A stretch of DNA of 22,584 nt, from the IMG/VR virus record IMGVR_UViG_3300042446_001138, positions 1-22,584 of that record. One strand, written 5' to 3'. This document shows, in pieces, positions 7,745 to 22,584 of the stretch. Within the stretch, counting starts at the first letter, position 1. The number at the start of each line of letters is the position of its first letter. Source of the stretch: a virus. The notes below the pieces were generated by a model, which was given only the letters and a program-made list of their open reading frames with translations, had not been told where the DNA came from and ran no database searches. The position numbers and the translations under genes are program-made.

Positions 7745-7752
7745 GCAGTAAA

Positions 7753-8595
7753 ATGAAACATTTAAACATCACTGACAACCTTGAACGTTTGGGCCCAAGC
7801 CTCATAGTTACTGATAGTAAAGTAGGCAGAATGGCAGTCTATAAAAACGACTCTGTAGTAAGTCCATCAATATTACTGTTTGGTGAGTACTGTGATGCAG
7901 AGGTACAGGTCATGGCAAAGTATCTTACACCCGAATCTATATATTTAGATATTGGTACTAATATCGGATATCATGCATTAGCAATAAATCAACTAGTAGG
8001 GTGCCCTGTATTAGCATTTGAGCCGCATCCTAATCATTTTTCTGTAGCCGCATATAACTGCAAAGACAAGCCTATCAAGATATACAATACTGCGTTAGGT
8101 AGCAAGAATGGTACAATGATCATAAGTAATTTTGATGAAAACATTCTTGGTAACTACGGCGAAGTAGGAGTTAATAATGAAGGTATTGAAGTACAAGTAA
8201 TTAAACTAGACAACTTAGAAGATTTAGCAGAAGTTACATTGATGAAAATTGACGTAGAGGGTGCAGAATTAGATGTACTTAAGGGTGCGGCAAAGACGAT
8301 TAAGAATCAACGTCCTGTAATCTTTTACGAAGCAATTGATAGTGAAATTTGGAATAAGTGCTATAAGTGGTTAGATGCTAAAGATTATAACCAGTACTGG
8401 GTCATATGTAGACATAAACCAATCAAAGAAACGTTTAAAAAAACTGATGAGAATCCGTTTGGACTAAGTGGAGTAAGTAACATATTAGCCGTACCTATTG
8501 AGAAAGATCAACCTAACTTTTTATGTCCGGTAGTGCCTAATGAAGAACCTAATGACACTATTGTTAGGATAATGAAATATATACTGGTGTTTTGA
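7753..8595 (+). CDS. FkbM-type SAM-dependent methyltransferase, copy 2 (280 aa)
   Basis: This is the tandem paralog of the preceding gene, with a canonical core. It has LDIGTNIG at residues 65-72, AFEPHPNHF at 88-96 and KIDVEGAE at 165-172, followed by DVLKGAAK and RPVIFYEA. FkbM proteins typically methylate hydroxyl groups of sugars, lipids or natural products, but the substrate here is unknown. The gene follows copy 1 by eight bases and is probably cotranscribed. It converges with the minus-strand gene ending at 8601, only five bases away. Compared with copy 1 it has extra residues near position 130 (NILGNYGEVG). In phages such enzymes may alter host surface glycans or phage-made modifications; that is inference. 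Confidence 0.93.
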   Translation: MKHLNITDNLERLGPSLIVTDSKVGRMAVYKNDSVVSPSILLFGEYCDAEVQVMAKYLTPESIYLDIGTNIGYHALAINQLVGCPVLAFEPHPNHFSVAAYNCKDKPIKIYNTALGSKNGTMIISNFDENILGNYGEVGVNNEGIEVQVIKLDNLEDLAEVTLMKIDVEGAELDVLKGAAKTIKNQRPVIFYEAIDSEIWNKCYKWLDAKDYNQYWVICRHKPIKETFKKTDENPFGLSGVSNILAVPIEKDQPNFLCPVVPNEEPNDTIVRIMKYILVF

Positions 8596-8600
8596 TCAAT

Positions 8601-9146
8601 CTAAGATGTCCATCTAGGATATCTATTTAATTGCTCTAAAAATACATTAGGATTAAGTTTCCAAAAGGTCTGAGTGTGACCTCTGTATTCTCTTTCAAAT
8701 GATCTAGACAATACATTAGTTTTTTCTAATGACGGAGCATATATATTATGCACTAATTTTTGTGTCCCTACATCGCTAGGATGGGTAGTAATATACATAT
8801 CACCCTTATCGTTTGCCCACTCAATACATTTAGGAATAAAGAATTGTGCTGTAACATGTTGATGACTGATAATTTGATTTCGAGTGCGTAATGTATTTGT
8901 GGGTAGTAGATGAGTTAATACACAGGTTCTAGCACAGATTCTTACACCTTCATCTATTGTGTGTGCCGCTACGCTACCCACAGCAATATTATTATAGTAT
9001 AAAATCCAAACACCCCAACTAGCTTCATTTCGAAAACAATCAATCATTGCTGCCTGCGATGAATTATTCACAAAACCTTTATGCGCCGCATCAGCATAAA
9101 ATTCTGATAAGTTTAAATCTGCGGTCCATGGTATTATAGTATACAT
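8601..9146 (-). CDS. Possible GNAT-like N-acyltransferase (181 aa)
   Basis: The function is uncertain. The layout is compatible with a GNAT fold: an N-terminal helical region, then the strands WGVWILYYNNIAVGSVAAH (about residues 44-62), a second strand (VRICARTCVL), a long helix (HVTAQFFIPKCIEWANDKG), and a strand (MYITTH) leading to the C-terminal region. I cannot see a clear acetyl-CoA pyrophosphate loop of the Q/RxxGxG type, so the assignment is tentative. The start at 9146 overlaps the end of the kinase-like gene upstream by 13 bases. It is the last gene of a three-gene minus-strand unit with a 2OG-oxygenase-like and a kinase-like protein, so it may act in the same modification pathway. 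Confidence 0.75.
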   Translation of the reverse strand: MYTIIPWTADLNLSEFYADAAHKGFVNNSSQAAMIDCFRNEASWGVWILYYNNIAVGSVAAHTIDEGVRICARTCVLTHLLPTNTLRTRNQIISHQHVTAQFFIPKCIEWANDKGDMYITTHPSDVGTQKLVHNIYAPSLEKTNVLSRSFEREYRGHTQTFWKLNPNVFLEQLNRYPRWTS

Positions 9147-9826
9147 TTTACTTTTTCAATGAATTCTATTGGATAGTTTGTACTAAAGCTAGACCAACAT
9201 AATTTATCCATTATTTGCCAAGACTGAGGGGCATCCCATTCTATTCCTAAGGTCTGTATATGTTTACGCATCTCATCCTGTCTAGTTGAGTAGATATGAC
9301 TCTCAACATCTTTTATACTGATATTTGGCTCATCTTTGTGATACGTAAAGAAATAGTTAATACTCTTTAATTTACCATTGACAACAAAATAACTACTAGG
9401 ATGCATACTGTATTTGTGCCATCCGTGTGATTTATGTGCTTTGATTATATCCAACATTTGATCTTGCCAATCAGGTACTACATTATCAAAGTTATTATGA
9501 TCACACCCTGCGCATTCCCAGAAATCTGGACCATCGATTCGTAGATAAATTTTACGTTCCGGTACATTTACTTCTAATATCTCTGGGACTAAATCGGGAA
9601 AATGATATGCCATATTGTGTAAGAAATGCATTTCCCTATGCCATTTTTCATCTATTTTTTTAGGGTCAACTACTTGATTTTGTCCTTTGTGATATTCCGT
9701 ATCGTTATAATACCACTGGCAGAATGTTTTCTTATCTTTACTTATTAAACTTGTATATATTAAATTGTTTCGGCACAGCCCTATATTTGGGACATTGTTA
9801 TAGTAATAAACAAAATTGTCGGTCAT
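9134..9826 (-). CDS. Kinase-fold-like protein, copy A, lacking catalytic residues (230 aa)
   Basis: I infer a protein-kinase/aminoglycoside-phosphotransferase-like fold. WHREMHFLHNM resembles the alphaC helix with its Glu. VPEILEVN and RKIYLRIDG resemble the strands leading to the hinge. WQDQMLDIIKAHKSHGWHKYSMHP resembles the helix entering the catalytic loop, followed by FVVNGKLKSINY where a kinase would have its metal-binding Asp. The catalytic-loop Asp is absent (KYSMHPSS) and the DFG-like position is Asn, so it looks like a pseudokinase or a divergent ligand-binding protein. It shares this layout and the MTD start with the gene at 20885-21580. It lies three bases after the 2OG-oxygenase-like gene and overlaps the possible GNAT gene. 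Confidence 0.85.
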   Translation of the reverse strand: MTDNFVYYYNNVPNIGLCRNNLIYTSLISKDKKTFCQWYYNDTEYHKGQNQVVDPKKIDEKWHREMHFLHNMAYHFPDLVPEILEVNVPERKIYLRIDGPDFWECAGCDHNNFDNVVPDWQDQMLDIIKAHKSHGWHKYSMHPSSYFVVNGKLKSINYFFTYHKDEPNISIKDVESHIYSTRQDEMRKHIQTLGIEWDAPQSWQIMDKLCWSSFSTNYPIEFIEKVKCIL

Positions 9827-9829
9827 ATT

Positions 9830-10432
9830 TTACTTATATATTTCTATAATTTTATTAGTGAATGCAAGATAATCTATCTCACCAAATATTCTCATTGTGA
9901 TCCTAGTCCCTTCAGAACGTGGTACTCGGTGCTTAATTGAATCATTCAATAACATTGCATTACCAAAAACTTTTACATACTCACCTGATTCATCACTCCA
10001 TATTTCACACCAAGTATTACCTGTGCTAGGAATTAAACTGAGTCCCAGAGTATGCGCTTTATCTCCCCTATCGTCCCAATCAGTATGTTCAACACAAGGG
10101 ACATCGGGGAAATAAACTACTCGTATCGCCCCTAAAATATTAAAAGGAAGTGATTCTATTACATGTCTTGTGTATGGAATATTTAATTTATAATCCCACC
10201 CCCATTCAGACTCATTTGCTTGTTTAGCTCCACGATAACTATAATCGATAAATGTTGGATTTACTCTTAGAAATAAACTATAAGCAGTTACTTTATCTAT
10301 ATCACCCCTATTAGGGGGATAAGAGAAGGGGAAACACTTATCACTATCTTGAACAGCCAGTAGTTCTGAAGTCATTTTTTCATAATCTATATCTAAGTTA
10401 AGACTTGCGGCAATAATATCATTAAAATCCAT
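9830..10432 (-). CDS. 2OG/Fe(II)-dependent oxygenase-like protein (200 aa)
   Basis: This is a DSBH protein with the iron-binding facial triad expected of 2-oxoglutarate oxygenases. From the ATG at 10432 the triad is His116-x-Asp118 (VEHTDWDD) and His168 (SIKHRVP). Arg177 or Arg181 (GTRITMRIFG) is suited to bind 2-oxoglutarate. The core resembles aspartyl/asparaginyl-hydroxylase-like and small phage 2OG oxygenases, but the substrate is unknown. An in-frame GTG at 10450 could start a protein six residues longer. I prefer the ATG because a late-promoter-like octamer lies between the two. It leads a minus-strand operon with a kinase-like and a possible GNAT gene and diverges from the TauD/ANL unit. 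Confidence 0.88.
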   Translation of the reverse strand: MDFNDIIAASLNLDIDYEKMTSELLAVQDSDKCFPFSYPPNRGDIDKVTAYSLFLRVNPTFIDYSYRGAKQANESEWGWDYKLNIPYTRHVIESLPFNILGAIRVVYFPDVPCVEHTDWDDRGDKAHTLGLSLIPSTGNTWCEIWSDESGEYVKVFGNAMLLNDSIKHRVPRSEGTRITMRIFGEIDYLAFTNKIIEIYK

Positions 10433-10437
10433 AAAAA

Positions 10438-10445
10438 TATTTATC
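10438..10445 (-). promoter_or_regulatory. Candidate late-type promoter for the minus-strand oxygenase operon
   Basis: Read on the minus strand the octamer is GATAAATA, one mismatch from the T4-like late element TATAAATA. It ends five bases before the ATG at 10432, so any leader would be very short. It lies in the 43-base divergent gap. Confidence 0.4.
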
Positions 10446-10459
10446 GGCACTGTATGCCA

Positions 10460-10475: not shown

Positions 10476-11276
10476 ATGAAATATAAATCAGATAAGAGTG
10501 GATGGCCAGTAGTACTAGAAGATATTGATTTGTGTAAAGTTAGCCAAACAGAAATAAATCAAATTGGAAAATTATTGGCTACAAATGTAGTTGTTGTTGC
10601 AAAGAATCAATCACTTTCCATCGATGATGAGATTTGTGTTTTAGAAATGTTTGATGATTTGTATAGATTTGATGTAGGAAATAACCCAGAAGATTCCCCT
10701 TATAAAAATTGCATAGTAGAAGACAGCAACCAGCGGCTGGTAAGAGTCACCGGCGAATTAGATAGTTCGGGGAACATTGGATTTGCAGCAGATAATGACG
10801 GTATAGGATGGCATCTTGATAATGTACAATCAGCTTATAGGCGATCACTTACATGGCTATACGGAGTTCATGGTACAGTTGGATCAAAAACCATTTATAC
10901 AAATACACTTATGGCTTTTCAGGATTTGGGAGAAGAAATACAAACCAGACTTAAACCACTGACTTTGGATGTTAATTCAAAACATTATTTTCCTAAAATA
11001 GTACAGAGCAACAAATTTCAAATAGATGGGTTATATTTTCCATTCAGACAATTCTTATCAATCAAAGACATATCAGCAGAAGAAAATAAAGAACTTATAA
11101 CCTTATTAACTAATCATATTTTGCAAGAAAAATATATGTATACGCATGATTGGAATGACGGGGATGTACTTATTGCTGACCAATGGTTTGGTATTCATAA
11201 ACGTGAATATTTTTCTAACATGGATAAACGGTTATTACATCGGGCTTATATTAACTATCCAAGAGTTCTTGCATGA
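10476..11276 (+). CDS. TauD/TfdA-like 2OG/Fe(II) oxygenase, copy 1 (266 aa)
   Basis: This is a DSBH oxygenase of the TauD/TfdA/clavaminate-synthase-like group, which hydroxylates or otherwise oxidises small molecules and amino-acid derivatives using Fe(II), O2 and 2-oxoglutarate. The metal triad is His113-x-Asp115 (GWHLDN) and His241 (FGIHKRE), with 2OG-binding Arg256 (LLHRAY). WLYGVHGTVGSKT at about 127-139 and QEKYMYTHDWNDGDVLIADQW at about 217-237 are shared with the two later copies. The start is supported by the matching N-termini of the paralogs (MKYxxxxxGW). Its stop overlaps the ATG of the ANL gene by ATGA, so the two are translated together. Confidence 0.93.
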   Translation: MKYKSDKSGWPVVLEDIDLCKVSQTEINQIGKLLATNVVVVAKNQSLSIDDEICVLEMFDDLYRFDVGNNPEDSPYKNCIVEDSNQRLVRVTGELDSSGNIGFAADNDGIGWHLDNVQSAYRRSLTWLYGVHGTVGSKTIYTNTLMAFQDLGEEIQTRLKPLTLDVNSKHYFPKIVQSNKFQIDGLYFPFRQFLSIKDISAEENKELITLLTNHILQEKYMYTHDWNDGDVLIADQWFGIHKREYFSNMDKRLLHRAYINYPRVLA

Positions 11277-12709
11277 AACTAATTAATAGAGATATTATTA
11301 ACAAAGGGTTGCAAGTCACTAGTCTTAAAATGCATCAACCTATGAATGCTATTAGTAGAGAAATATATTCATATGATGAAGTAATTCTAAAAATAGATAT
11401 TATTAAAGAATTTCTTATAACAAAATACGATGTGACTCCGGGTGAAAAAATTGTGTTAGCGACTTTTTATTGGCCGGATTATATATCATGGATATTTGCT
11501 TGCGCTGAATTGGGGTTGTCTTTTGTTATAATTGATTATCCTAAAACGAAAGAAGCCCTAAAAAAATTTGAAGTATACGGCAAACTCGACTATTTAATTT
11601 ATGATATTCATTATCCGCCGGCGTTTGATGACTCTGATACAAAATTGATTAATGCTAACCATATAAACGATTTCACTTATTCAAACAAATCTACTCCAAA
11701 TTGGGGTAATGAAGATAGTATTTTGATATATGCCGCTTCTTCTGGTAGCACCGGAACTCCAAACGTGGCTACGTATAAACAAAAATACTTCTGGGACCTT
11801 ATTGACAGAAATGCAAATTTATATAACCTTAATGAATCAGATAAGTGTTTTCATTCTAAGATACTACATCACGGAAGCGTTTCCGCTACGTACTTTTTTC
11901 CGACAATAAAACATTGTAAGTATCATTATCACGCACCTTTTCAAATATTCAATAGTGGTGTAGATGAGACTAGTCTAATAAAAACTTGGGTGAATATGCT
12001 TCTAGAAGACCAGATTACTAGGGCTATGTTTTTTTACGATCAATTAGATCATGTCGTAAAACACTTAGACTTGTCTAAAAAAACACATAACAATATGACA
12101 GCCTATGTCATTTCAAAAATTAAACCAGACCATATAAACAAAATAGTCAAAGAATTTGGATATAAAATTGTTTCTATATTTGGAACTACTCAAACTAGTG
12201 GACCATTATTTTTACCTGAAATAAATATTAATAATTGTGATAAAATTGATGCGTCTAATATGGGATTCATCCCAGATGATTTTTATAAATTTAGGATAAA
12301 CCGTGATTCTTTACTAGAGATTAAAACTCCATGGCATGACGATTACATTTGCAGTGGAGATAAATTTGAAGTTATAAATGACCAATGGATTTATAAAGGT
12401 AGAGAAAACATTTATAAAATTAACGGAAGAACAGTGTATACTAATTTGTTGATTGATATTATAGAATCTACATTAAATTTAAAGAATGAAAAAGATTTTG
12501 ATATCGTAGTAGATCAAGAATTTGATAAAATATTTTTGAGATCAACTTATCCAGTCGATTTAGAAAAATTAAATAATGATATATTAAACTATATAAACGA
12601 AAAAGAATATAAAATTTCACTAAATTTAGTGATTGATAGAGATGAATGTTTTAGTGGAATAAAATTTGATCCAGAATACATAAGAATAATATGCAGAAGT
12701 AAACTATGA
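11273..12709 (+). CDS. ANL-superfamily adenylate-forming enzyme (478 aa)
   Basis: This resembles acyl/aminoacyl-AMP ligases, which activate a carboxylate with ATP. The phosphate-binding loop (A3 motif) is at residues 154-168 (AASSGSTGTPN). An A5-like FGTTQ is at 303-307, a CSGD motif (A7) at 360-363, and YKGRENIYKINGR at 374-386 matches the A8 hinge. The usual Glu of A5 is Gln307 and the Lys after TGxP in A3 is Asn164. The C-terminal A10 region is changed (FSGIKFD), so activity may be unusual. No carrier-protein domain follows. ATGA overlaps on both sides place it between two TauD-like genes, suggesting that it activates or ligates the substrate those oxygenases modify. An ANL enzyme in a phage genome is unexpected. 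Confidence 0.9.
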   Translation: MKLINRDIINKGLQVTSLKMHQPMNAISREIYSYDEVILKIDIIKEFLITKYDVTPGEKIVLATFYWPDYISWIFACAELGLSFVIIDYPKTKEALKKFEVYGKLDYLIYDIHYPPAFDDSDTKLINANHINDFTYSNKSTPNWGNEDSILIYAASSGSTGTPNVATYKQKYFWDLIDRNANLYNLNESDKCFHSKILHHGSVSATYFFPTIKHCKYHYHAPFQIFNSGVDETSLIKTWVNMLLEDQITRAMFFYDQLDHVVKHLDLSKKTHNNMTAYVISKIKPDHINKIVKEFGYKIVSIFGTTQTSGPLFLPEININNCDKIDASNMGFIPDDFYKFRINRDSLLEIKTPWHDDYICSGDKFEVINDQWIYKGRENIYKINGRTVYTNLLIDIIESTLNLKNEKDFDIVVDQEFDKIFLRSTYPVDLEKLNNDILNYINEKEYKISLNLVIDRDECFSGIKFDPEYIRIICRSKL

Positions 12710-13572
12710 AATACACATTACATGAGAATGGTTGGACTATACTAGCCGATGTTGATTTAAAAACAATTATTCAAGAGGATGTAGATCATCTTGCAAGATT
12801 AGTTGCAACTAACACCTGTGTAGTATTGAGAAATCAAAAGTTAACGGTATCGGATCAGGTTAAGATTGCTCATATGTTCAAGAACCCAGACCCGTTACTA
12901 ACACCCAATGATTCCTCATTTATTCATTGTGCAGCGGATTTAACTCAGGATCCTACCGGGATAATCTGTCGAGTTAGTGGAATGTTAAATGAACATGGAA
13001 AACCGGGAATTGCGGGTCACATTGATGAAATGCAATGGCACTGTAATCAGCCCTTTAAATTTGACCGAGCCTCAATAGTTTGGTTGTACGGTGTACAAGG
13101 AACACTGGGCTCTAGAACTACATGGAATAACAATATATTATCTTATAATGACTTAGATCAGGATACTAAGGACAAGTTATCAGAATTGCAATGCATTTAC
13201 TTTGGTGGAATGCAACATACTGAAGCATATAAAAAATCAGATTCCTTTAAGGAAACAAAATATGTAATTGAAGATTTTACACCAAAGTTAGTTCATACAA
13301 ACAATGCAGGCAAAACTGGACTTTATTTTTCTCCCTTGCAACTAGAAAAATTTGTAGGAATGTCTAGGGAAGAAAGTTTAGAAATTATTACTCCATTATT
13401 TGAACACACAACACAAGAAAAGTATTGTTATCACCATGACTGGCAAGACGGTGATGTTATTATCAGTGACCAGTGGCTAGGTATACATAAGCGTTGGAGA
13501 TTTGAACAGATTTCTAATCGAATGTTACATCGAATGGTATTTGACTATCCAGATCAAAATTATGAACTATAA
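12706..13572 (+). CDS. TauD/TfdA-like protein, copy 2, metal-ligand Asp replaced by Asn (288 aa)
   Basis: This is a full-length paralog of the neighbouring TauD-like oxygenases. It keeps WLYGVQGTLGSRT, the KYCYHHDWQDGD segment, the distal histidine (LGIHKRW) and the 2OG-type arginine (MLHRMVF). The first half of the triad reads QWHCNQ, so His112 is followed by Asn114 where copies 1 and 3 have Asp. The codon is AAT at 13045-13047. Loss of the carboxylate is known in Fe/2OG halogenases (Ala or Gly there), but it can also mean an inactive partner. A nearby GHID (residues 104-107) is not in the aligned position. The start forms an ATGA overlap with the ANL gene, and the end overlaps copy 3. Confidence 0.92.
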   Translation: MKYTLHENGWTILADVDLKTIIQEDVDHLARLVATNTCVVLRNQKLTVSDQVKIAHMFKNPDPLLTPNDSSFIHCAADLTQDPTGIICRVSGMLNEHGKPGIAGHIDEMQWHCNQPFKFDRASIVWLYGVQGTLGSRTTWNNNILSYNDLDQDTKDKLSELQCIYFGGMQHTEAYKKSDSFKETKYVIEDFTPKLVHTNNAGKTGLYFSPLQLEKFVGMSREESLEIITPLFEHTTQEKYCYHHDWQDGDVIISDQWLGIHKRWRFEQISNRMLHRMVFDYPDQNYEL

Positions 13573-14431
13573 GTTAATAAATGAGTGGGCACCTGTTATA
13601 ACCGATATCGATTTATCGGTTTCTACTCAAGAGGATATTAATACTATTTCTAAATTAATAGCTACCTATTCTCTAGTAGTAATAAAAAAACAAAAATTAT
13701 CATTGTCTGATGAACTACGAGTAGTGAATATGTTTAAAGATATAGGATCTTTTTTAGAAGAAACCGACGAGCAATTAAAATTACTAAAAGTTTCCGGAAC
13801 AAACGGAAAATTACTACGAGTTGGTGGGAAAAAGAATGAATACGGTTCTCCGGGAATATCTAGCCACCCGGAAGAAATGGATTGGCACTTAGATTTTCAT
13901 TGGGCTATGAATTCAAATAATGTTGCATTAATATGGTTACACGGTGTTGAGGGAGTTGAAGGATCTAGAACTTCATGGTTGAACAGCATAAACGCATATG
14001 AAGATTTAGATAAAGACCTTAAGGATTTATTAAAAGATACTACCGCAACTATGGCTAGGTATGTTCAATTTAATGTAAAAAACTTCATTGAAGATGAGAA
14101 TCAAAATAGATGGGCTCCTGGTGAAGAATTCAAAGGGTATCAGCGAAATGTGATTGATGTTAGTCCTGCAGGTAAAAAACATTTATTTTTCCCTTTCTAT
14201 AACATGCATCATTTAAATGATCTATCCAAAGAAGAAAGTAAACCTATCTTTTTACAATTAGCAAAACATATGACACAAGAAAAGTATTGCTATCATCATG
14301 ATTGGGAATTAGGTGACATAGTTATTTCTGATAATCGTTTAGGGTTACATAAACGATGGGCATTTGATAAAATAGAAGATAGATTGTTGCATAGAGCAAT
14401 GTTCGATTACCCAAATGACTTAGAATTTTAA
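13562..14431 (+). CDS. TauD/TfdA-like 2OG/Fe(II) oxygenase, copy 3 (289 aa)
   Basis: This is the third TauD-like paralog, with an intact site: His109-x-Asp111 (DWHLDF), distal His in LGLHKRW and Arg in LLHRAMF. I start it at ATG 13562, giving MNYKLINEW, because it matches the MKYxxxxxGW starts of copies 1 and 2. The open frame upstream to a TTG at 13502 lies inside copy 2. It overlaps copy 2 by 11 bases. The region around residues 165-190 (FIEDENQNRWAPGEEF) differs most from the paralogs and may shape the substrate pocket. It ends the four-gene unit, directly abutting the 3' end of the minus-strand tRNA-like gene. Confidence 0.93.
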   Translation: MNYKLINEWAPVITDIDLSVSTQEDINTISKLIATYSLVVIKKQKLSLSDELRVVNMFKDIGSFLEETDEQLKLLKVSGTNGKLLRVGGKKNEYGSPGISSHPEEMDWHLDFHWAMNSNNVALIWLHGVEGVEGSRTSWLNSINAYEDLDKDLKDLLKDTTATMARYVQFNVKNFIEDENQNRWAPGEEFKGYQRNVIDVSPAGKKHLFFPFYNMHHLNDLSKEESKPIFLQLAKHMTQEKYCYHHDWELGDIVISDNRLGLHKRWAFDKIEDRLLHRAMFDYPNDLEF

Positions 14432-14505
14432 TGGAGCGGCCGGGGGACTCGAACCTCCGTCTCTAGTTTGGACAACTAGCGTAAAACCTCTCTACTACAA
14501 GCCGC
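14432..14505 (-). tRNA. Irregular tRNA-like gene, anticodon by position UCC (Gly)
   Basis: On the minus strand 74 bases fold as a cloverleaf. The acceptor is GCGGCT with GGCCGC, followed by T and an encoded CCA. The D stem is GTAG with TTAC, the anticodon stem CTAGT with ACTAG around loop TGTCCAA, and the T arm GGAGG-TTCGAGT-CCCCC. The T arm and CCA are convincing. The oddities are a six-pair acceptor stem, a single base between acceptor and D stem, an A-C mismatch in the T stem, and G instead of the near-universal U at position 33. By position the anticodon is UCC (Gly), but the irregular loop makes identity uncertain. Its 5' part lies inside the 3' end of the adjacent CDS, whose stop codon falls in the anticodon stem. 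It may be functional, degenerate or a relic. Confidence 0.6.
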
Positions 14506-15354
14506 AGGAATTAAATCCAGTAGTTTTTTGAACATAATATCATTACCCTCAGGAGTTTTGACTGACACTTTAAAGGGTTTCCCTCCGTGAAAAGTGGCAA
14601 GCTCCTTATCCACTATTCCTGACGTAAATTTAAACCATGGGGGATACCAACCATCTTTACCTAAACAATGTATTACTGGGATTTGTTTAGAAGTTAAATA
14701 TTGATCTATTTGTAGTAATGCACCATAATATCGATTTAGTTGCAAGTCAGGATGATACAAGTATTTTTTATGTAGCATTAACGCATCAATTAATTCTTTA
14801 AAAAATATGTTTTCATCAACATATGATTTGACTAAATTCATTAACGATTCTTGTGGGTTTTCTTTTATTAAGGTATCAGAATCTAATTTTATGTTTTGTT
14901 CTTTTGCAATTGAGTTTAGCACTGCAATTACTGGAGCATTCTCGGTACTTGCTATTCTATTGATTTCGAATAATATTTCATCATCAGTAAACTGTACCCC
15001 TTTAGTATTACACCAGTTTTCTATTAGGTCTATTATTTCGGGGTGCTTTTTTATTTCTTCTAATGTAGCACCCTTCATCAAATTAAATTTTTCTACAAGA
15101 TATTCACGTCCAGCTGTGGTCGCATCTCTATGCCATGATGGAATAAAACATACTGTAGGATCAGCATGGAATATGATTGCTATATCTATTTTTTTGATTT
15201 TTTTTAATTGGAGAAGAATTCTTTCCTCTGAACACATAGCGCATCCCGAATTTACTATATTAGCATTAAAATGATCTTGTAATTTAGTTATAAATGACCA
15301 TGGCTCTTTGTGCTCCCAATTGGCAATGCTATGACCAAAAATACCTATATTCAT
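14476..15354 (-). CDS. Possible SGNH-hydrolase-like protein, 3' end overlapping a tRNA-like gene (292 aa)
   Basis: The family is uncertain. The N-terminus MNIGIFGHSIANWE resembles the first strand and block I of SGNH/GDSL hydrolases (usually GDS, here GHS with Ser9). It is followed by NSGCAMCSEE, which sits where an Asn/Gly block could be, and the core strand IDIAIIFHADP. A long helical insert (about residues 75-185) is present, and the end has YHPD and FHGG motifs. Such enzymes are esterases or acyl hydrolases, and some act on glycans. The start is well supported by AGGAAA five bases upstream and by the promoter-like octamer at 15372-15379. The last ten codons and the TAG stop lie inside the tRNA-like gene, so the C-terminus (AACSREVLR) may be fused or acquired. 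Confidence 0.8.
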   Translation of the reverse strand: MNIGIFGHSIANWEHKEPWSFITKLQDHFNANIVNSGCAMCSEERILLQLKKIKKIDIAIIFHADPTVCFIPSWHRDATTAGREYLVEKFNLMKGATLEEIKKHPEIIDLIENWCNTKGVQFTDDEILFEINRIASTENAPVIAVLNSIAKEQNIKLDSDTLIKENPQESLMNLVKSYVDENIFFKELIDALMLHKKYLYHPDLQLNRYYGALLQIDQYLTSKQIPVIHCLGKDGWYPPWFKFTSGIVDKELATFHGGKPFKVSVKTPEGNDIMFKKLLDLIPAACSREVLR

Positions 15355-15371: not shown

Positions 15372-15379
15372 TATTTATT
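15372..15379 (-). promoter_or_regulatory. Candidate late-type promoter, minus arm of a divergent palindrome
   Basis: On the minus strand this reads AATAAATA, one mismatch from TATAAATA. It forms a perfect palindrome with 15381-15388 around the G at 15380. The SGNH-like start codon lies 17 bases downstream, leaving room for its Shine-Dalgarno. Confidence 0.55.
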
Positions 15380-15407: not shown

Positions 15408-16454
15408 ATGACAGATACCTATTCGTTGTGTGAACATTGCTATAGACATATACCGGCAAATAGATTTATCCGTGATGGGGCGGTGTACTTGGGCAAAACA
15501 TGCATAAAACATGGATATCACGAATGCTTAGTAGAAATTGATAGCGAGTTTTATCTTAGTCAGGATTATGAAAGACGCAATCCACGTAGTTATTGGTTAG
15601 ATATAACTAATAGATGTAATTTAGATTGTCCTCATTGTTATCAGATGCCAGAGAATACTAGTATTGATCCTGCAATTGATTACTTACTATTTCAAATCAG
15701 CAAGTGGCCAGATAATGGGTTTGCAATAAGTTTAGTAGGAGCAGAACCGACAACACGCAAAGATTTACCTGATTTAATTCGTGCAATCCAGGCGTTGCCA
15801 GGACAGCCTAGATTAATAATGATTGTGACTAATGGTATTAATTTAGGTAAAGAAGATTATGCTAAGAAATTTGTGGGTATACCAAATCTGATTTGGACCA
15901 TTGGACTTAATCATCCTGAGTATAATGGTGGTGTAATACGTAAAAAACAAGAAGAAGGTATTAAGAATTGTATTAGACTAGGATTAACTATTAAGAACTT
16001 TACATATACATTGGGTGATCTAAATCAACTACCCTATGTATTAGAAGAAGTTCAAGAATGGAATCGTAAAGGCATTTGTGATAATGCACGTATTCAAGTT
16101 GGGGTCGATATAGGAAGAACTCCGGAAGAACATGAAGCTGAATTATATCTAAGTGATTTAGTTAAAGCTACTAAGCAAGAAACATTGAATAAAAATTGGT
16201 CATGGGAGCCAAGTACAGAAGGTAATCGCACACATTATGCAGTCTATATCAACGGGGTACTACATAGATTAATTAAATGGGTAGATGTTAAAACTATTGA
16301 TTTTAGTGAAGTGTTTAGCGAATCGTTAGCAGAACTTGTACCCGGTAAACCAATGAGTACATTGCTTCATCAAGTTATATTACGTGATAGAGTTATTAAT
16401 GAAAAGCAACCGTTATTTGATACATTACCATTAGAATATAGACAGTATGATTAA
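15408..16454 (+). CDS. Radical SAM protein with N-terminal Cys domain (Tes/COG1964-like), copy 1 (348 aa)
   Basis: This is a radical SAM enzyme. The [4Fe-4S] triad Cys70, Cys74, Cys77 is in CNLDCPHC. A GGEP-like SAM motif reads GAEPTTRKDLPDL from residue 111. The N-terminus has Cys8, Cys11, Cys32 and His35 (CEHCYRH ... GKTCIKHG), matching the small metal-binding domain seen in the group that includes archaeal tetraether lipid synthase and MJ0619-type pterin methylases. Unlike those longer enzymes, it has no visible C-terminal cysteine cluster, so a full auxiliary cluster set is unlikely. I start at ATG 15408; an upstream TTG at 15378 lies over the promoter-like palindrome. The next gene is a paralog overlapping by eight bases. 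The substrate is unknown. Confidence 0.93.
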   Translation: MTDTYSLCEHCYRHIPANRFIRDGAVYLGKTCIKHGYHECLVEIDSEFYLSQDYERRNPRSYWLDITNRCNLDCPHCYQMPENTSIDPAIDYLLFQISKWPDNGFAISLVGAEPTTRKDLPDLIRAIQALPGQPRLIMIVTNGINLGKEDYAKKFVGIPNLIWTIGLNHPEYNGGVIRKKQEEGIKNCIRLGLTIKNFTYTLGDLNQLPYVLEEVQEWNRKGICDNARIQVGVDIGRTPEEHEAELYLSDLVKATKQETLNKNWSWEPSTEGNRTHYAVYINGVLHRLIKWVDVKTIDFSEVFSESLAELVPGKPMSTLLHQVILRDRVINEKQPLFDTLPLEYRQYD

Positions 16455-17511
16455 ATTAGAAGATACATTGGGAATATGTGAGCATTGTTATAGACATGTT
16501 CCTGCAAAAAGATTTATACGTGCAGGCGGCGTATATTTAGGAAAGACTTGTCCAGTGCACGGCTACGTAGAGCATTTAGTTGAACCTGATGTTGATTTTT
16601 ATACTGGATATGAGTATACAAGAAGGGCATTGGAGAGTTATTTTCTAGAAATTACTAACCATTGTAATTTAGCTTGTCCACACTGTTATCAAGAACCTAA
16701 TAATACAACGGCAGACCCGTCAATAGATTATATCTTATCATTGATTGATAGTTGGCCTGACGATGGATACTCAGTTGCTTTAGTAGGTGCTGAACCAACT
16801 ACACGTAAGGATCTACCTGACCTGATTCGTGCTATAAACAATATGAATAAAAAACATAGAAACGTGATGATATTAACTAACGGTGTATATCTAAGTAACT
16901 ATGAATATGCAAAACGATTTACTGAATTTGATTATCTACAATGGACTGTGGGATTGAATCATCCTGAATATCAAGGACATACTGTACGTAGGAAACAAAT
17001 GGAAGGTATTAAAAATTGTACTGATTTAAAACTACCAATTAAAAATGTTAGTTATACACTAGAGACATTGGATCAACTAGAGTATTGTTTAGACGAAATA
17101 CAAGAGTTTGGTGATAGTATTTGTAGTCAATATCGAATTCGGTGTGGTGCGGATATCGGACGATATCCGGGCAGCCCCAAGATATACATGAGTCAGTTAG
17201 TAAATGAAGTAAAATCTATCTCACATACCAAAGGATGGTCTTTCAGCCACAATAATGGAGCTGGTAATCGTAGTCATTATGCAGCCATTATTAATAATTT
17301 ACCAGTTAAGATTATTCAATGGCCCGATGTAAAAACAATTGATTTAGGTGAAGTTCAAACTGAAGCTATTGCTGACATATTACCAGGCAAACCACCAAGT
17401 CCTCTAGTGCATCAAGTTATACTACGTGATGCTATGATTAATAAAAAGATGATGTTATTTGATACTATCCCTAAAGAATATATAGAGAATTATGGCCATA
17501 TTAGGAATTAA
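16447..17511 (+). CDS. Radical SAM protein with N-terminal Cys domain (Tes/COG1964-like), copy 2 (354 aa)
   Basis: This is a tandem paralog of the previous radical SAM protein. The [4Fe-4S] cysteines are Cys73, Cys77 and Cys80 (CNLACPHC), and the GAEPTTRKDLPDLIRAI motif is nearly identical to copy 1. The N-terminal domain has Cys11, Cys14, Cys35 and His38. The C-terminal half is also shared (LPGKP, LHQ/VHQVILRD, LFDT), so both copies keep a family-specific tail. Differences cluster around residues 230-260 (ICSQYRIRCGADIGRYPG), which may set specificity. Two such paralogs side by side suggest a heteromer or two successive steps on one substrate. Its end overlaps the next oxygenase-like gene by 20 bases. 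Confidence 0.93.
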   Translation: MIKLEDTLGICEHCYRHVPAKRFIRAGGVYLGKTCPVHGYVEHLVEPDVDFYTGYEYTRRALESYFLEITNHCNLACPHCYQEPNNTTADPSIDYILSLIDSWPDDGYSVALVGAEPTTRKDLPDLIRAINNMNKKHRNVMILTNGVYLSNYEYAKRFTEFDYLQWTVGLNHPEYQGHTVRRKQMEGIKNCTDLKLPIKNVSYTLETLDQLEYCLDEIQEFGDSICSQYRIRCGADIGRYPGSPKIYMSQLVNEVKSISHTKGWSFSHNNGAGNRSHYAAIINNLPVKIIQWPDVKTIDLGEVQTEAIADILPGKPPSPLVHQVILRDAMINKKMMLFDTIPKEYIENYGHIRN

Positions 17512-18298
17512 TAATAATCCGTACTTTGATATGGAATCATACTTAGATATGTTAGAGTTTGACAGACTACAGCCTGAAATTATACGCGGGTTTGCTGAAG
17601 CACGTGAGTTTGCAAAAGAAGGCACATGGATGAAGCCTGGCTTTACTTTTGAGCAAATGAGTTATAAACATAACTGGAAGCCCATCTATCAAGCAATGGA
17701 TGAGTTCATGGAACTACCCAAAGATGATCCTATATATATGGGTGGAATAGATTTATTTAAAGACTTTAATAACTATAAACAACGTAATAAATTTACTCGC
17801 TATCTTAAAATGGTTATGGGCGCATATGATCCTTATATCTATTATTTCTTATGGGAGGAAGGGTCATGGGATGATCGTACTGCACCACGTAAATTAACAG
17901 AAGAAGCACAGTATTTCCCAGGCACTGTTAAATGGGTTGAAGATATGATTGCAAATAATATCTTTGAACACATAGGTCGTGTTATATTCTTTCACTGTGA
18001 AGCAGACGGGATACCCTTTGAGCATAGAGATTTAGATGCTAAGAACGGAATTAATAATCATGGTCCGCATCGTAACGAATTCATACATATACGTCCTAAT
18101 ACTAAAAAAGCCTTTTACATATGGGATCCTGAACTTAAGAACAAAATCTATTTAAATACAAGAGCCGCATGGTGGAATGACAACGACTGGCACGGTGGAG
18201 AAAAGATAATGGAACAGAGTTATAGCTTACGCATTGATGGTAAGTTTACTGATGATTTCAGAAAGAAACTAGGAATTGATCATTTGGAGACTTATTAA
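17492..18298 (+). CDS. 2OG/Fe(II)-oxygenase-like protein (268 aa)
   Basis: The N-terminal two thirds are helical and unfamiliar. The C-terminal part has a DSBH pattern: His-x-Asp in FEHRDLDA (about residues 177-180), a strand IHIRPNTKKAFYIW, and the distal His in NDWHGG, then SYSLRIDG where an Arg could bind 2-oxoglutarate. This supports an Fe(II)/2OG oxygenase-like role, though the spacing is not the standard one for the small paralogs downstream. The ATG at 17492 lies within the end of the radical SAM gene (20-base overlap); a second possible start is the ATG at 17531. Its stop overlaps the next ATG (TAATG). It probably works with the radical SAM pair. Confidence 0.85.
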   Translation: MAILGINNNPYFDMESYLDMLEFDRLQPEIIRGFAEAREFAKEGTWMKPGFTFEQMSYKHNWKPIYQAMDEFMELPKDDPIYMGGIDLFKDFNNYKQRNKFTRYLKMVMGAYDPYIYYFLWEEGSWDDRTAPRKLTEEAQYFPGTVKWVEDMIANNIFEHIGRVIFFHCEADGIPFEHRDLDAKNGINNHGPHRNEFIHIRPNTKKAFYIWDPELKNKIYLNTRAAWWNDNDWHGGEKIMEQSYSLRIDGKFTDDFRKKLGIDHLETY

Positions 18299-18798
18299 TG
18301 ATTTACATAGGAAACTATTCACATTGGATAAAAGATGAATGGATAGAATATCTATGCAATAACAACGGGACTCTTAGACCAAAAACTGCTAACGAGAACC
18401 CAGATAGTCAAGAGTTTAGAATAGCTACTGCTGCCGGGTATGATTTATCTAAAACATATTGGCATCATTATACTAACACTAATAATACTTTTCCTTTGCA
18501 GTTAGAACTTCCCTTTGCCAATAATCATTCTCATATATGGTGGTTTATTAAAATGACTCCTGGACAGTTCATGCCCATGCATAAAGATCCGCACGCCGTT
18601 GAAGAACAAGATGTTAAACGATATTGGATGGCCCTACAAGATTATGAAGAAGGTCATATACATATTAACAATAGACATTTTTTATCTGATTATAAAAAGG
18701 GAGATTTATGGATGTATGATGACCCTATGTCTATACACGGTGCTTGTAATATCGGATATTCTCCTAGACTAGTTTTCAACTTTAGTACATACAAATAG
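18298..18798 (+). CDS. Small 2OG/Fe(II)-oxygenase-like protein, paralog 1 (166 aa)
   Basis: This is a compact DSBH protein with the full oxygenase triad: His95-x-Asp97 (MPMHKDPH), distal His147 (PMSIHGA) and Arg157 (YSPRLVFN), ten residues after the distal His, as expected for 2OG binding. The core also has GHIHINNRHFLSDYKKGDLW. The N-terminus (MIYIGNYSHWI) is shared with the next gene, and the two align throughout. The gene starts at a TAATG overlap with the previous gene. Such minimal oxygenases are common in marine T4-like phages, where their function is mostly unknown. The substrate here is unknown, but the operon suggests joint action with the radical SAM proteins. Confidence 0.92.
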   Translation: MIYIGNYSHWIKDEWIEYLCNNNGTLRPKTANENPDSQEFRIATAAGYDLSKTYWHHYTNTNNTFPLQLELPFANNHSHIWWFIKMTPGQFMPMHKDPHAVEEQDVKRYWMALQDYEEGHIHINNRHFLSDYKKGDLWMYDDPMSIHGACNIGYSPRLVFNFSTYK

Positions 18799-18800
18799 CT

Positions 18801-19325
18801 ATGAAATATATAGGAAACTACAAGTCTTGGATTGAAGAACAAGAGATTATGAAACACCTTACTAATTGTCAAGGTGATCGTACTCCGGTATGGCAACCTG
18901 ATCGTTGGAGCGGGAATCCAACATTAGAAAAATTTAAAGAAATGGCTCGTTCAGGCTACTCAAACAACAATTTTTTCTTTCACCAAATGAATCCAAAATC
19001 TGAAGAAATGCAGAATTTTAAATTTACATTACCAAAAACTCCTGATAATCGTAGTAAAGTAAATTGGTGGTTTGTAATGTTATATCCGGGCGAGTTTCAA
19101 GCTATGCACATAGATCCGCAATTGACTGAAGTTAAAAATTTTGTACGTTATACAATGTTTTTACAAAATTGGGAACCAGGGCATATATTTGTATGGGATG
19201 ACAAATACATATCTAATTATAAAGCCGGAGACATGTACGAATGGAATGATCCTATGACTGTACACGGCCCTGCTAATATAGGATATAATACACGGTATAC
19301 CTTACAGATTACAATGTACGATTGA
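18801..19325 (+). CDS. Small 2OG/Fe(II)-oxygenase-like protein, paralog 2 (174 aa)
   Basis: This is the paralog of the gene two bases upstream, sharing the N-terminal MxYIGNYxxWI and the C-terminal strand pattern. The triad is His103-x-Asp105 (AMHIDPQ) and His155 (TVHGPANIGYN), with Arg165 ten residues later for 2-oxoglutarate. It has the same GHIF...NYKAGDMYEW arrangement before the distal His. It is the last gene of the plus-strand operon beginning at 15408, and its final 17 bases overlap the 3' end of the convergent radical SAM gene. No membrane segment or extra domain is present. Confidence 0.92.
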   Translation: MKYIGNYKSWIEEQEIMKHLTNCQGDRTPVWQPDRWSGNPTLEKFKEMARSGYSNNNFFFHQMNPKSEEMQNFKFTLPKTPDNRSKVNWWFVMLYPGEFQAMHIDPQLTEVKNFVRYTMFLQNWEPGHIFVWDDKYISNYKAGDMYEWNDPMTVHGPANIGYNTRYTLQITMYD

Positions 19326-20400
19326 GTTGCTCGCTGATTTTAATAAACGGACCGTTATTGCCGCAAAGTATTTTACAAGTTGATGATGAGTTATCATCCC
19401 ATTTATGGCGGATTAATTTTTGCCAAACATCAGTTCTCATAATATTTTTAATAGAATGTTTTTTTGAGTCTAATGCATCCAGTCCGCCAAGTTCTTGAAT
19501 AATAGAAAAAACTTCTAGTTGAACTTCTCTAGCAATACTAGTAATACTAGTTTCATCTATAATACCGTACTTACGATACAGTTCAACATCGTAATTAGCA
19601 TACAAAAAAGACCCTATTAAACAGCACGGCATTAGATAACCGTTAGCATCTATATAAAGTTCTTTAGAGTCAACCGCAAAACAACTGATATCAGTTTTCC
19701 ATTCTTTATAATTTTTTAAATCTAAGAACTCTACTGGTTTAATATCACTGTTGATAGGAGGTTCTATATAGTAATTGATAGCCCCTTTTCTATCAAGTAC
19801 TGGAAATTTTTTACCAAATCTTTTACTATCTTTTGTAGAAAATTTTGAAAATCCTAGTTTAGATGATATGTTTCTTGCCTCATCCACTTGATGCTCATTA
19901 TGTTTAAACCTTATAAAAATCCATTCTGCATTGCCGCCGCCGTCTATAAAGGCTTTAGCATTTTTTATGATGGTATTATAGTTAGTTCCAATTCGATAAA
20001 GACTATGAGTATCCACTAGTCCGTCTAAAGCAAATACTACTCTATGGTTCTTTGGTAATGCAACAGCTAAAGATTTCCACCATTGCGTAGTTTGTGCCGA
20101 ACCATTCGTATTAATCACAATTTCTAAACTAGATTTTTTTGCACTGATATATCGGCACATTTCTAATAAATCAGAGTTGATAATAGGATCACCGTAATCG
20201 CCACAGAAATTAATGCAAGATACTTGATTTAAAACTTCGTCAGTAAACGTATTCTGAAACCTCTCTAGTGTCCAATCTGTTAAAACTAAGTTAGGGTTAT
20301 CAATTCCGCTGTGTATGTTTCTAAGACACATGGGACAACTAGCTTGACACCGATTAGTGATTTCAATTTGTACAGTATGCAGTAGTTCAAAGGAAAACAT
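19309..20400 (-). CDS. Radical SAM protein with SPASM-like C-terminal cysteines (363 aa)
   Basis: The [4Fe-4S] triad is Cys18, Cys22, Cys25 (CQASCPMC) near the start, preceded by the usual strand HTVQIEITN. A glycine-rich motif INFCGDYGDPI takes the GGEP position. The C-terminal third holds more cysteines: SCFAVDSKELYIDANGYLMPCC and, near the end, TCKILCG. This pattern resembles SPASM or twitch domains that carry auxiliary iron-sulfur clusters in peptide- or small-molecule-modifying enzymes. It starts directly after the stop of the 2OG-oxygenase-like gene (TAAATG) and ends in a convergent overlap. It is probably the last gene of a four-gene unit entering from beyond the right edge. Confidence 0.92.
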   Translation of the reverse strand: MFSFELLHTVQIEITNRCQASCPMCLRNIHSGIDNPNLVLTDWTLERFQNTFTDEVLNQVSCINFCGDYGDPIINSDLLEMCRYISAKKSSLEIVINTNGSAQTTQWWKSLAVALPKNHRVVFALDGLVDTHSLYRIGTNYNTIIKNAKAFIDGGGNAEWIFIRFKHNEHQVDEARNISSKLGFSKFSTKDSKRFGKKFPVLDRKGAINYYIEPPINSDIKPVEFLDLKNYKEWKTDISCFAVDSKELYIDANGYLMPCCLIGSFLYANYDVELYRKYGIIDETSITSIAREVQLEVFSIIQELGGLDALDSKKHSIKNIMRTDVWQKLIRHKWDDNSSSTCKILCGNNGPFIKISEQLNRTL

Positions 20401-20892
20401 TTAATATCCTATAACATGAAACATATACTTGTTTGTTAGGCCACCATTGATTCCATTATGCCAGTCTTTGTGATTACCCCATTTAAGTATTGTGCCCTGA
20501 GGTTTATTGTAGAAATATTCTTTACCTAGTATAAACAAATGTCCAACCGTTGGTTCACTAATAAAAATAGAATAGCGTTTTAATAATCCATGTTTTAAAT
20601 ATTCTTGCTCGTTATCATCTATATCATAATGATAACCAGTCATGTAGCCAGGTTCTACACAACTAATCCAACTACGCAACACAATAACACCTACTTGCTT
20701 AGATATTTCTTTTTCAAGATCCGCAGTCTCATAATAGTTTGTCCACCTAACACCATCAGTGTTAAAGTTATTATCCTTCCATAACTTTAACATTTCTGCA
20801 TATTCTGGATTGTTTATGTTCCAACGTGCAGAATCAACAGTAACAACCTTACCGTTTACCAAGTTACTGATAACTGTATTCCAATTAATCAT
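20401..20892 (-). CDS. 2OG/Fe(II)-oxygenase-like protein, Lys at the usual 2OG-Arg position (163 aa)
   Basis: This DSBH protein has an intact metal triad: His88-x-Asp90 (GYHYDID) and His145 (DWHNG). The residue ten positions after the distal His, Arg in the paralogs at 18298 and 18801, is Lys155 (TNKYMFHVIGY). It could still hold 2-oxoglutarate or reflect another co-substrate. SIFISEPTVGHLFILGKEYF forms the central strands. I chose ATG 20892 rather than the upstream TTG at 20919 because it is an ATG that overlaps the end of the previous gene by eight bases, like other junctions here. It lies between a kinase-like gene and a radical SAM gene. Confidence 0.88.
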   Translation of the reverse strand: MINWNTVISNLVNGKVVTVDSARWNINNPEYAEMLKLWKDNNFNTDGVRWTNYYETADLEKEISKQVGVIVLRSWISCVEPGYMTGYHYDIDDNEQEYLKHGLLKRYSIFISEPTVGHLFILGKEYFYNKPQGTILKWGNHKDWHNGINGGLTNKYMFHVIGY

Positions 20893-21580
20893 TATAGACT
20901 TCTTCGAATATGTCAGCAAACACAGTATTACCCCAACCTTTTCCTTGTAGATGTTTTGTTACAGTAATTTCAAAAAACTTTTTAAAATCAATAAAACCTT
21001 TTTCATCAGTTGATTGATCAAAACGATAGGAACCGTCCTTGCCTATAATACCTTCAATTATTTTTCTTTCTATAAATCTTTCTTCATAGGGAATAACAGC
21101 ATAGTGGTCTATAGTTTTTAGTTGACCGTCTTTTGAAATAAAGAAACAATTTGGGTACAGTGATGTTTTCCAGAAGTTATTTGCCTTTGTGGAAATAAAA
21201 AAGTCTTTCATCTGTTTCTTCCAAGTCGGAACTTCTGTGTCTAAGTCTCTACCCGGAGTATACAACACTTGCGATAATGTTTCTTTGTTCCATTCCATAA
21301 AGATTTTTCTATGGTTATAGTCTACATCATAAAGTATCGGAGTAGTTGTGAGATGCGATAATTGTTTTAAAAATTTAGCATCTCTGTTAAAAAACCATTC
21401 TATTAAATCTTCTGCTACTATTACTGTTTCTTCAGGTCTGTAATCTGCGTCAATACAATAGTGAGCACACATTATTGTTTGCTCTGGATTAATTCTAGGA
21501 GTGTATAATAAATTTGACGGATATCTATCTCCGTTGGGATTTAGCTTATGATAATATCCCCAACTGCTTATATCTGTCAT
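20885..21580 (-). CDS. Kinase-fold-like protein, copy B, lacking catalytic Asp (231 aa)
   Basis: This is a distant paralog of the protein at 9134-9826. Shared features are the MTD start, a SNLLYT/NNLIYT segment near residue 25, an alphaC-like helix (RDAKFLKQLS), a hinge-like strand (RKIFMEW), the W-x-x-QM helix and a catalytic-loop-like region (KTSLYPNCFFI). DGQLKTIDHYA follows, where the Asp could match the DFG Asp. The catalytic loop lacks the expected HxD, so it may bind nucleotide or metabolite without phosphorylating, or be a pseudokinase. The kinase fold is inferred from this layout only. ATGA overlap with the upstream radical SAM gene and overlap with the next oxygenase indicate one coupled operon. 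Confidence 0.85.
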   Translation of the reverse strand: MTDISSWGYYHKLNPNGDRYPSNLLYTPRINPEQTIMCAHYCIDADYRPEETVIVAEDLIEWFFNRDAKFLKQLSHLTTTPILYDVDYNHRKIFMEWNKETLSQVLYTPGRDLDTEVPTWKKQMKDFFISTKANNFWKTSLYPNCFFISKDGQLKTIDHYAVIPYEERFIERKIIEGIIGKDGSYRFDQSTDEKGFIDFKKFFEITVTKHLQGKGWGNTVFADIFEEVYND

Positions 21581-22584
21581 AGTTTACTCCAACTTAGTTT
21601 TTTATTAATATAACTTTGCACCTGATCTTTAAACTTTTGATCTGCTGAGTTTATATCTGATACTTTGTAGTCGTAAATATGTTCGTATACATTGGTTTCA
21701 TAATATGCAAACAGTCTATCCGATAAGAATGGATTACAACCTTTACGTCCAATAAAACCACCGGTCCTAGAATAAAATTCCTGCACTAAAGATTCTGCTT
21801 GGTACCAATCCATAGTATGATGTTTCCAAATAACAATGTCATTTCTAGTACTTCCAACGCCACCGCCTCGGGGTGTCGTAGATTTAAATACTACGTGACC
21901 GCTACTATCTTTAAAAACTTCGTAGCCTGGATTTTGTCTAGCTTCTAATTTAATTAATCCGTTACTTACTAGTTCTTTAGTAAACTTACTTTGATTAGTT
22001 AGTGATTCATCGTAATCAGGAACTTCAAGTATATGTGCGCTAGCACTTTGTCTAACCCATTTGGTGTTCAACCATTCTAATGAATTGTTCCAAGACTCTA
22101 CGCTTTCGCCGGGTATTCCACAAATCATCTGTATATTTGCTCTATAACGTCTATGTGCATGAATATCCGTATATGCTTGGAAGTCTAATAAGCCTTCTCG
22201 CAACTTATCAGGATCCATACCCTTGCGTACAAGTTTACCAGCTTCATGATTAAACGTTTCAATGCCCATGCTGTGTCCAAGGAAGCCTAATCTAATGTAA
22301 GTATCCCAATATGCCTTGTGTTTAACAACCAAGTCTCCGCGGGCAAATCCGCATATCCAGGGGTTGTAATTTAGTTCGTCTACCGCGTCAGCATACTTTT
22401 GTAATTTTTCAGGACGGTCGTTAAATGTCTCGTCCATAACACGCCAATTTTTAATGCCCCACTTTTCAAACCCAGTTTGCATTTGAAGTTTAAATTGTTC
22501 TTTACTAACACTAACGTCCTTAGCTTGTCCTATGATAGGAAAGTTACAGTAAGAGCAACTGAACATACAACCACGTGCTGTTTC
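21577..22584 (-). CDS. Radical SAM protein, 5' end beyond the window
   Basis: The reading frame is open through the right edge. The first visible residues are ETARGCMFSCSYC, containing the CxxxCxxC radical SAM cluster motif in the ARGCxFxCxxC form typical of B12-binding radical SAM enzymes (BchE-like class). An N-terminal cobalamin domain may therefore lie outside the window. Downstream motifs include MDETF (about 40 residues after the cysteines), GHSMGIETFN and MICGIPGESVESW, which match strands of the radical SAM barrel. The C-terminal part (from about residue 200 of the visible sequence) is specific and unrecognised. The stop overlaps the kinase-like start (ATGA). The substrate is unknown; if a cobalamin domain is present, methylation of an unreactive carbon would be likely. 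Confidence 0.92.
   Translation of the reverse strand, partial: ETARGCMFSCSYCNFPIIGQAKDVSVSKEQFKLQMQTGFEKWGIKNWRVMDETFNDRPEKLQKYADAVDELNYNPWICGFARGDLVVKHKAYWDTYIRLGFLGHSMGIETFNHEAGKLVRKGMDPDKLREGLLDFQAYTDIHAHRRYRANIQMICGIPGESVESWNNSLEWLNTKWVRQSASAHILEVPDYDESLTNQSKFTKELVSNGLIKLEARQNPGYEVFKDSSGHVVFKSTTPRGGGVGSTRNDIVIWKHHTMDWYQAESLVQEFYSRTGGFIGRKGCNPFLSDRLFAYYETNVYEHIYDYKVSDINSADQKFKDQVQSYINKKLSWSKL

Follow-up and report, generated by a model that had tools for sequence, protein, structure and literature searches.

The window analysed here, a 22,584-base virus fragment (22.6 kb; IMG/VR virus record IMGVR_UViG_3300042446_001138), encodes two adjacent radical SAM proteins, A and B, that belong to a separate, virus-only branch of the Tes/TrsS superfamily and are neither Tes nor TrsS. 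Their sequence family, architecture, fold, missing cluster ligands, virus-only clade and gene linkage are directly observed. From here we infer an activity, a substrate class, an order of steps and a surface role: this virus-specific subfamily may tailor a polar small molecule or sugar-like group within a surface-structure island, a reading to which we give about an even chance. The genes at its centre are as follows.

15408..16454, + strand: radical SAM protein A, 348 aa, with a rubredoxin-like CX2C-X20-CX2H site, a CX3CX2C core, GAEPT and no auxiliary-cluster cysteines; the accessory member of the pair
16447..17511, + strand: radical SAM protein B, 354 aa, with the architecture of A; present in every locus of the set, the search having started from B
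17492..18298, + strand: OX3, a 2-oxoglutarate/Fe(II) oxygenase-type protein (HxD...H) overlapping the end of B

The reading frames of A and B are both open and overlap by 8 bases, A beginning at an ATG (15408; a TTG lies in frame at 15378), and the two proteins are 56% identical. Both contain the PF23545 domain (Zn_ribbon_HMPTM; 49.6 bits for A and 47.8 for B, cut-off 27), and both belong to the radical SAM superfamily by PF04055 (Radical_SAM; 40.5 and 48.7 bits, cut-off 29.5). The invariant ligand-type residues of the A/B family are C11, C14, C35 and H38, together with C73, C77 and C80; the only invariant cysteines are thus those of the N-terminal site and those of the radical SAM motif, three in each, and among phage members no cysteine after that motif is conserved (none reaches 95%). 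The CX2C-X20-CX2H motif occurs with exactly this spacing in all 98 distinct phage members, which argues that it did not arise by chance. These sequences bear out the original prediction that both proteins carry CxxC...CxxHG and GAEPT motifs and lack the C-terminal cysteines of auxiliary clusters.

The model of B (30 sequences; mean pLDDT 90.5, pTM 0.88) has Tes as its first match (PDB 7TOL/7TOM; Foldseek E 1.5e-16; Z 30.5 over 328 residues), and the match to 7TOL covers residues 1-334, so the N-terminal metal domain is present in the predicted structure as well. The next fold, MoaA (Z 17.5), matches from residue 59, and the remaining matches (Z at most 17.5) nearly all begin at or after residue 46, TigE (8vpo; Z 12.7, spanning 1-354) being an exception. 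Family models, a PDB sequence match to 7TOL, the fold and the tree agree that the virus carries a tandem pair of Tes/COG1964-like radical SAM proteins, as had been proposed from the DNA. pVip models match weakly (E 1e-10 to 2e-5) and viperin folds match the B model at Z about 15, which could alternatively point to viperin-type enzymes making chain-terminating nucleotides. This is scarcely credible, since the pVip and anti-phage defence matches cover the radical SAM core only, Tes models score far higher and the Z score of the Tes fold is twice as high. Viperin is not known to have a rubredoxin-like N-terminal domain of the A/B kind.

With Tes (GDGT-MAS; MJ0619, PDB 7TOL and 7TOM) the phage proteins have in common the CX2C-X20-CX2H spacing, the rubredoxin-like domain, the radical SAM barrel and the overall fold; the rubredoxin-like iron site of MJ0619 is C9X2C12X20C33X2H36 (PMC9433317). 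They differ in lacking the N-terminal [4Fe-4S] domain as well as the residues that would bind a C-terminal [4Fe-4S] cluster, in being about 140 residues shorter and in lying outside the Tes clade. Cellular homologues are nearly all 430-600 aa long, and in most of them an additional CxxxCxxC lies about 65 residues past the first cysteine, the site that binds the N-terminal [4Fe-4S] cluster in MJ0619 (PMC9433317). In the phage proteins the radical SAM motif itself lies about 62 residues past the first cysteine, versus about 90 in cellular homologues, and the N-terminal [4Fe-4S] ligands of Tes (CxxxCxxC and a histidine before the core) are not present in the A/B family. The region after the radical SAM motif comprises 274 residues in phages and 387 in Tes-like proteins, a difference of about 110. 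A MAFFT alignment with two cellular homologues sets phage E306 on their cluster-region C-terminal cysteine, and phage D294, D299 and L300 correspond to D445, D450 and L451 in the Tes set (D-x4-D-L), which puts E306 on Cys457. The profile-profile comparison with Tes did not reach the C-terminus, and this correspondence is drawn from MAFFT and D-x4-D-L. Residue 306 is glutamate in 94 of 100 phage sequences, and H322 is invariant.

A published proposal has the substrate of MJ0619 carried on its C-terminal [4Fe-4S] cluster, in the form of a carbon-sulfur intermediate (PMC9433317). Because coupling passes through this auxiliary cluster, the ligands of which are missing in A and B, Tes-type C-C coupling by the phage proteins appears unlikely from their sequences. 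A phage-encoded Tes-like enzyme acting on acyl chains in the host membrane, by altering or coupling them, would fit with Tes being the closest solved fold, with the existence of Tes-type relatives in bacteria and with an AMP-binding ligase in the island of the window. Nevertheless, the loss of the ligands for the substrate-carrying cluster, the shortened C-terminal region, the low Tes score (below), mostly polar conserved residues and the position of the phages outside the Tes clade make lipid modification very unlikely and weaken the lipid substrate put forward in the original prediction. Among the 50 most conserved residues after the motif, 31 are polar or aromatic and 7 hydrophobic, a bias that is no more than suggestive of a polar substrate, the comparable count in Tes-like proteins (17 of 36) showing no clear difference from 31 of 50. 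A pterin-like substrate, the other possibility raised at the outset, is likewise weakened: the group that solved the MJ0619 structure could not corroborate its role as a pterin methylase (PMC9433317).

Scores and phylogeny place the pair outside both named families. Against the Tes equivalog NF045702, A and B reach 68.1 and 66.7 bits (cut-off 450), whereas a true archaeal Tes (L176) reaches 682 bits; against TrsS (NF045646), slightly their best NCBIfam score, they reach 75.2 and 76.8 bits (cut-off 490). Identity with Tes is ruled out by this score, by the absence of both auxiliary [4Fe-4S] sites and by the separate phage clade (100/100), and identity with TrsS by the sub-cut-off score and by placement outside TrsS. 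In the tree the phage sequences form one clade apart from 73 cellular rows, and the bona fide Tes L176 lies far from it. When bacterial proteins without the N-terminal cluster are added, they adjoin the phage clade at 90/83, a weak placement that carries a long-branch warning. The supposed kinship with COG1964, Tes and MJ0619 proteins therefore holds at the level of the Tes/TrsS superfamily, in a clade of the phages' own. Protein A is a 100/100 subclade inside the phage group; A and B of one locus are 47-57% identical and are told apart by 15 positions, and the two are old subfamilies. A third, very distant phage member, C, lies upstream of B in a few loci (L001, L012 and L024; for example L001:8855-9979), with the same N-terminal site (52.6 bits) and a weak Radical_SAM match (23.3 bits).

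Searches of viral contigs gave 51 loci with B, 31 with A and 77 distinct loci with a joint A+B alignment, and contigs found at first by A alone contained B too in the joint search. Among 50,697 phage records, B had no match, nor had OX3, the B12 radical SAM, HMP3-type radical SAM, TauD and 677-aa proteins; for the SPASM protein, two Vibrio phages gave matches at 23%. When 84,980 bacterial and archaeal genomes were first scanned, the phage alignment returned no match, and a broader profile found only distant, longer homologues, Tes-type relatives in bacteria among them. The best matches in 1,019 genomes from three GTDB phyla, drawn neither from Cyanobacteriota nor from any named host group, were about 93 bits; closely related cellular proteins may be encoded in genomes beyond those covered here. 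No conserved operon was found among the neighbours of the nearest bacterial relatives, and nothing specific was found in the literature on phage radical SAM systems.

Gene linkage ties B more closely to OX3 than to A. The comparison covers 62 non-redundant B loci, some cut by contig ends, that were found with B or A+B and so contain B by construction. OX3 occurs in all 62 and is the direct neighbour of B in 47, with overlapping ORFs in 46 of these when starts are taken as the first possible start codon. Its H178, D180 and H234 are invariant, and its model has the double-stranded beta-helix of 2-oxoglutarate oxygenases, with fold matches to Z 10.8 and a predicted resemblance to prolyl hydroxylases. 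Had A and B been obligate partners of one heteromeric enzyme, as tandem overlapping genes, the placement of A immediately 5' of B in 32 of the 62 loci and a long-kept A-B identity might suggest, A would be expected to accompany B. It was found in 39 of the 62 loci, and in 15 loci B directly adjoins a kinase-like gene with A missing from that place; in a few, the place of A is taken by a pair of B12-type radical SAM genes or by other genes. Since A and B, moreover, each retain all catalytic motifs, a required heteromer, one of the two arrangements first proposed for the duplicated pair, is improbable. The other, successive steps by A and B, is possible, and the pattern argues for A as a separate, optional step. 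B with its downstream OX3 is the stronger functional unit, inside a much larger island whose remaining genes in the window are listed below.

8601..9146, - strand: GNAT-like protein (weak match to GNAT; its family occurs in 58 of 62 loci)
9134..9826, - strand: second kinase-fold-like protein (family likeness)
9830..10450, - strand: putative small oxygenase, ox17 (sequence motifs only, no family match; 12 loci)
10476..11276, + strand: TauD-family oxygenase (family match)
11273..12709, + strand: AMP-binding (adenylate-forming) enzyme (family match)
12706..13572, + strand: TauD-family oxygenase, of the family of 10476-11276 (phrog_24590, taurine dioxygenase)
13502..14431, + strand: TauD-family oxygenase, of the same family
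14476..15354, - strand: SGNH-hydrolase-like protein (motif only, no Pfam match)
18298..18798, + strand: ox1-type small oxygenase (HxD...H; Asp_Arg_Hydrox just below cut-off)
18801..19325, + strand: second ox1-type small oxygenase (ox1 family in 61 of 62 loci)
19309..20400, - strand: radical SAM/SPASM protein (Pfam)
20401..20919, - strand: third ox1-type small oxygenase (ox1 family)
20885..21580, - strand: protein-kinase-fold-like protein, kin (family in 62 of 62 loci)
21577..22566, - strand: cobalamin-type radical SAM protein, truncated where the window ends; a full-length relative (L041:15195-16736) has B12-binding and Radical_SAM domains

Island order is conserved: gnat-kin on one strand and (A)-B-OX3-ox1-ox1 on the other, then ox1-kin-(B12)-f8, followed by PLP-like, PP-loop, SPASM and further radical SAM genes. 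Besides the families counted above, f8 occurs in 56 of the 62 loci, B12 in 42 and TauD in 40. The kin protein resembles protein kinases (E 1.2e-6). PDB profiles gave weak likeness only for the PP-loop protein (to TtuA) and the PLP-like protein (to L-allo-threonine aldolase), weak hints for the GNAT-like protein and nothing useful for f11. Three TauD genes and the AMP-binding enzyme stand in a row at 10476-14431 of the window, and up to four TauD genes occur together elsewhere. A tRNA-like gene at 14436-14504 (- strand; 29.9 bits versus an Rfam threshold of 29; missed by ARAGORN) sits between a TauD gene and the SGNH-like ORF, overlapping the 3' end of that ORF; ARAGORN found no tRNA genes in 21 related loci. 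The island as a whole is large, recurrent, hypervariable, biosynthesis-like and previously undescribed, and it occurs in uncultured, probably T4-like phages known from environmental metagenomes.

Such gene content leaves room for products other than a surface compound. The pair might act on a virion protein or on a RiPP-type peptide, alongside the many oxygenases and SPASM enzymes, given that SPASM radical SAM proteins and Asp/Arg-hydroxylase-like oxygenases lie in the island, that the peptide-acting SuiB, SkfB and TigE are among the fold matches of B and that OX3 resembles prolyl hydroxylases. However, gaps of at least 100 bases near A-B-OX3 are absent from the window and number five in 78 loci, so that a gene encoding a precursor peptide would have little space; no precursor-recognition domain match was found in A, B or OX3, and nearly all fold matches outside Tes are limited to the core. 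We therefore consider a peptide or protein substrate rather unlikely. Alternatively, the island could make a modified nucleotide or a hypermodified DNA base. Kinase-like, GNAT-like, PLP-like and PP-loop proteins stand beside its oxygenases and radical SAM enzymes, a set that recalls phage base-modification pathways; ribonucleotide reductase genes are nearby, and a 186-kb relative carries a thymidylate-synthase-family gene. This too is improbable: strong variation in gene content between related phages and tail-type neighbours fit a surface function better, and the likeness of kin is to protein kinases rather than to a P-loop DNA kinase.

The phage context bears on the surface function. The left part of the window (NrdA, NrdB, a protein of about 670 aa, endolysin, FkbM and the island) has the same gene order in the 186-kb relative, a T4-like contig with gp23 and T4-type genes. 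The gene for the capsid protein gp23 was found in three of five large related contigs, the window being a fragment without it. The gp23 of the 186-kb relative has its nearest matches in large T4-like phages, at 68% in a 349-kb Vibrio phage and 64% in PA5oct-type phages, and the window's NrdA shares 60% identity with its counterpart in Xanthomonas phage X1. These matches hint that the window derives from a large T4-like phage whose host is Gram-negative and perhaps proteobacterial. Two FkbM-type methyltransferases stand in tandem at 6947-8595 of the window, flanked by the endolysin gene on one side and the island on the other. In the 186-kb relative (G001), the structural region includes a 5,394-aa ORF (49091-65275), and there are many tail-fibre-like genes. 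VrlC was not identified in the window.

A tail-type gene family is found in 27 loci and adjoins the island in many maps. These tail-type genes, together with the published analogy of T4-like pelagimyophages, which are described as having a hypervariable 'host recognition cluster' where radical SAM cassettes come and go (PMC7029224), point to a surface role for the island. A sugar epimerase (PF01370) encoded by the 186-kb relative also counts for a surface sugar; a search with Pfam found no clear glycosyltransferase in its island-flanking genes. A surface sugar or small molecule is the product class we favour over a peptide or nucleotide.

On the favoured reading, A and B would share descent with Tes and TrsS, having kept the barrel of radical SAM enzymes together with the rubredoxin-like iron domain, but neither the [4Fe-4S] domain at the N-terminus nor the ligands of the C-terminal cluster. 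The CX3CX2C cluster would cleave SAM, and the 5'-deoxyadenosyl radical would most likely abstract a single hydrogen from a small polar molecule or a group resembling a sugar, with oxidation, epimerisation or rearrangement as the outcome. The rubredoxin-like iron may be an electron relay or a structural site. The product of B would then be handed to the co-encoded 2-oxoglutarate oxygenase OX3, A would contribute a related, optional step, and the island would most likely make or decorate a surface structure of the phage or its host. More tentatively, and with somewhat less than even confidence, a minimal, virus-only lineage that has lost both auxiliary clusters, with the rubredoxin-like iron as its sole extra metal and within a phage-encoded pathway whose many radical SAM enzymes and oxygenases vary combinatorially, could yield a new natural-product-like compound or surface decoration.

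These proteins add a distinct minimal architecture to the Tes/TrsS superfamily: relatives of an archaeal membrane-lipid-fusing enzyme, stripped down and apparently re-purposed for a different, probably polar, substrate. They raise the question of what the rubredoxin-like iron is for once no auxiliary cluster remains. The island, which sets many oxygen-sensitive radical enzymes beside oxygen-requiring oxygenases, has core genes unmatched among sequenced phages.

Among cellular relatives, TrsS and related bacterial proteins have the superfamily in common with A and B but fall into other clades, the bacterial members possessing cysteines at both the N- and the C-terminus. Hemerythrin-fused Tes-like proteins of bacteria (L254-L261, L273 and L276) share with A and B a rubredoxin-like domain straight before the core, AEPT and the lack of an N-terminal cluster, but their C-terminus is longer and has conserved cysteines, and at least two have an N-terminal hemerythrin. 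In these two (L273:4576-6438 and L276:6249-8138), hemerythrin (PF01814) is fused to a Tes-like radical SAM protein without the N-terminal cluster, which suggests oxygen or iron sensing. In another bacterial relative (L279:6263-7528), the N-terminal domain seems to be without its metal-binding cysteines. At the level of the island, the nearest published system is the pelagimyophage host recognition cluster. The paper stresses glycosyltransferases and reports no radical SAM genes in its freshwater pelagimyophages, and its passages on the cluster describe no Tes-like proteins, but the cluster seems to resemble the present island in being a hypervariable region by tail-fibre genes of T4-like phages that carries radical SAM cassettes (PMC7029224).
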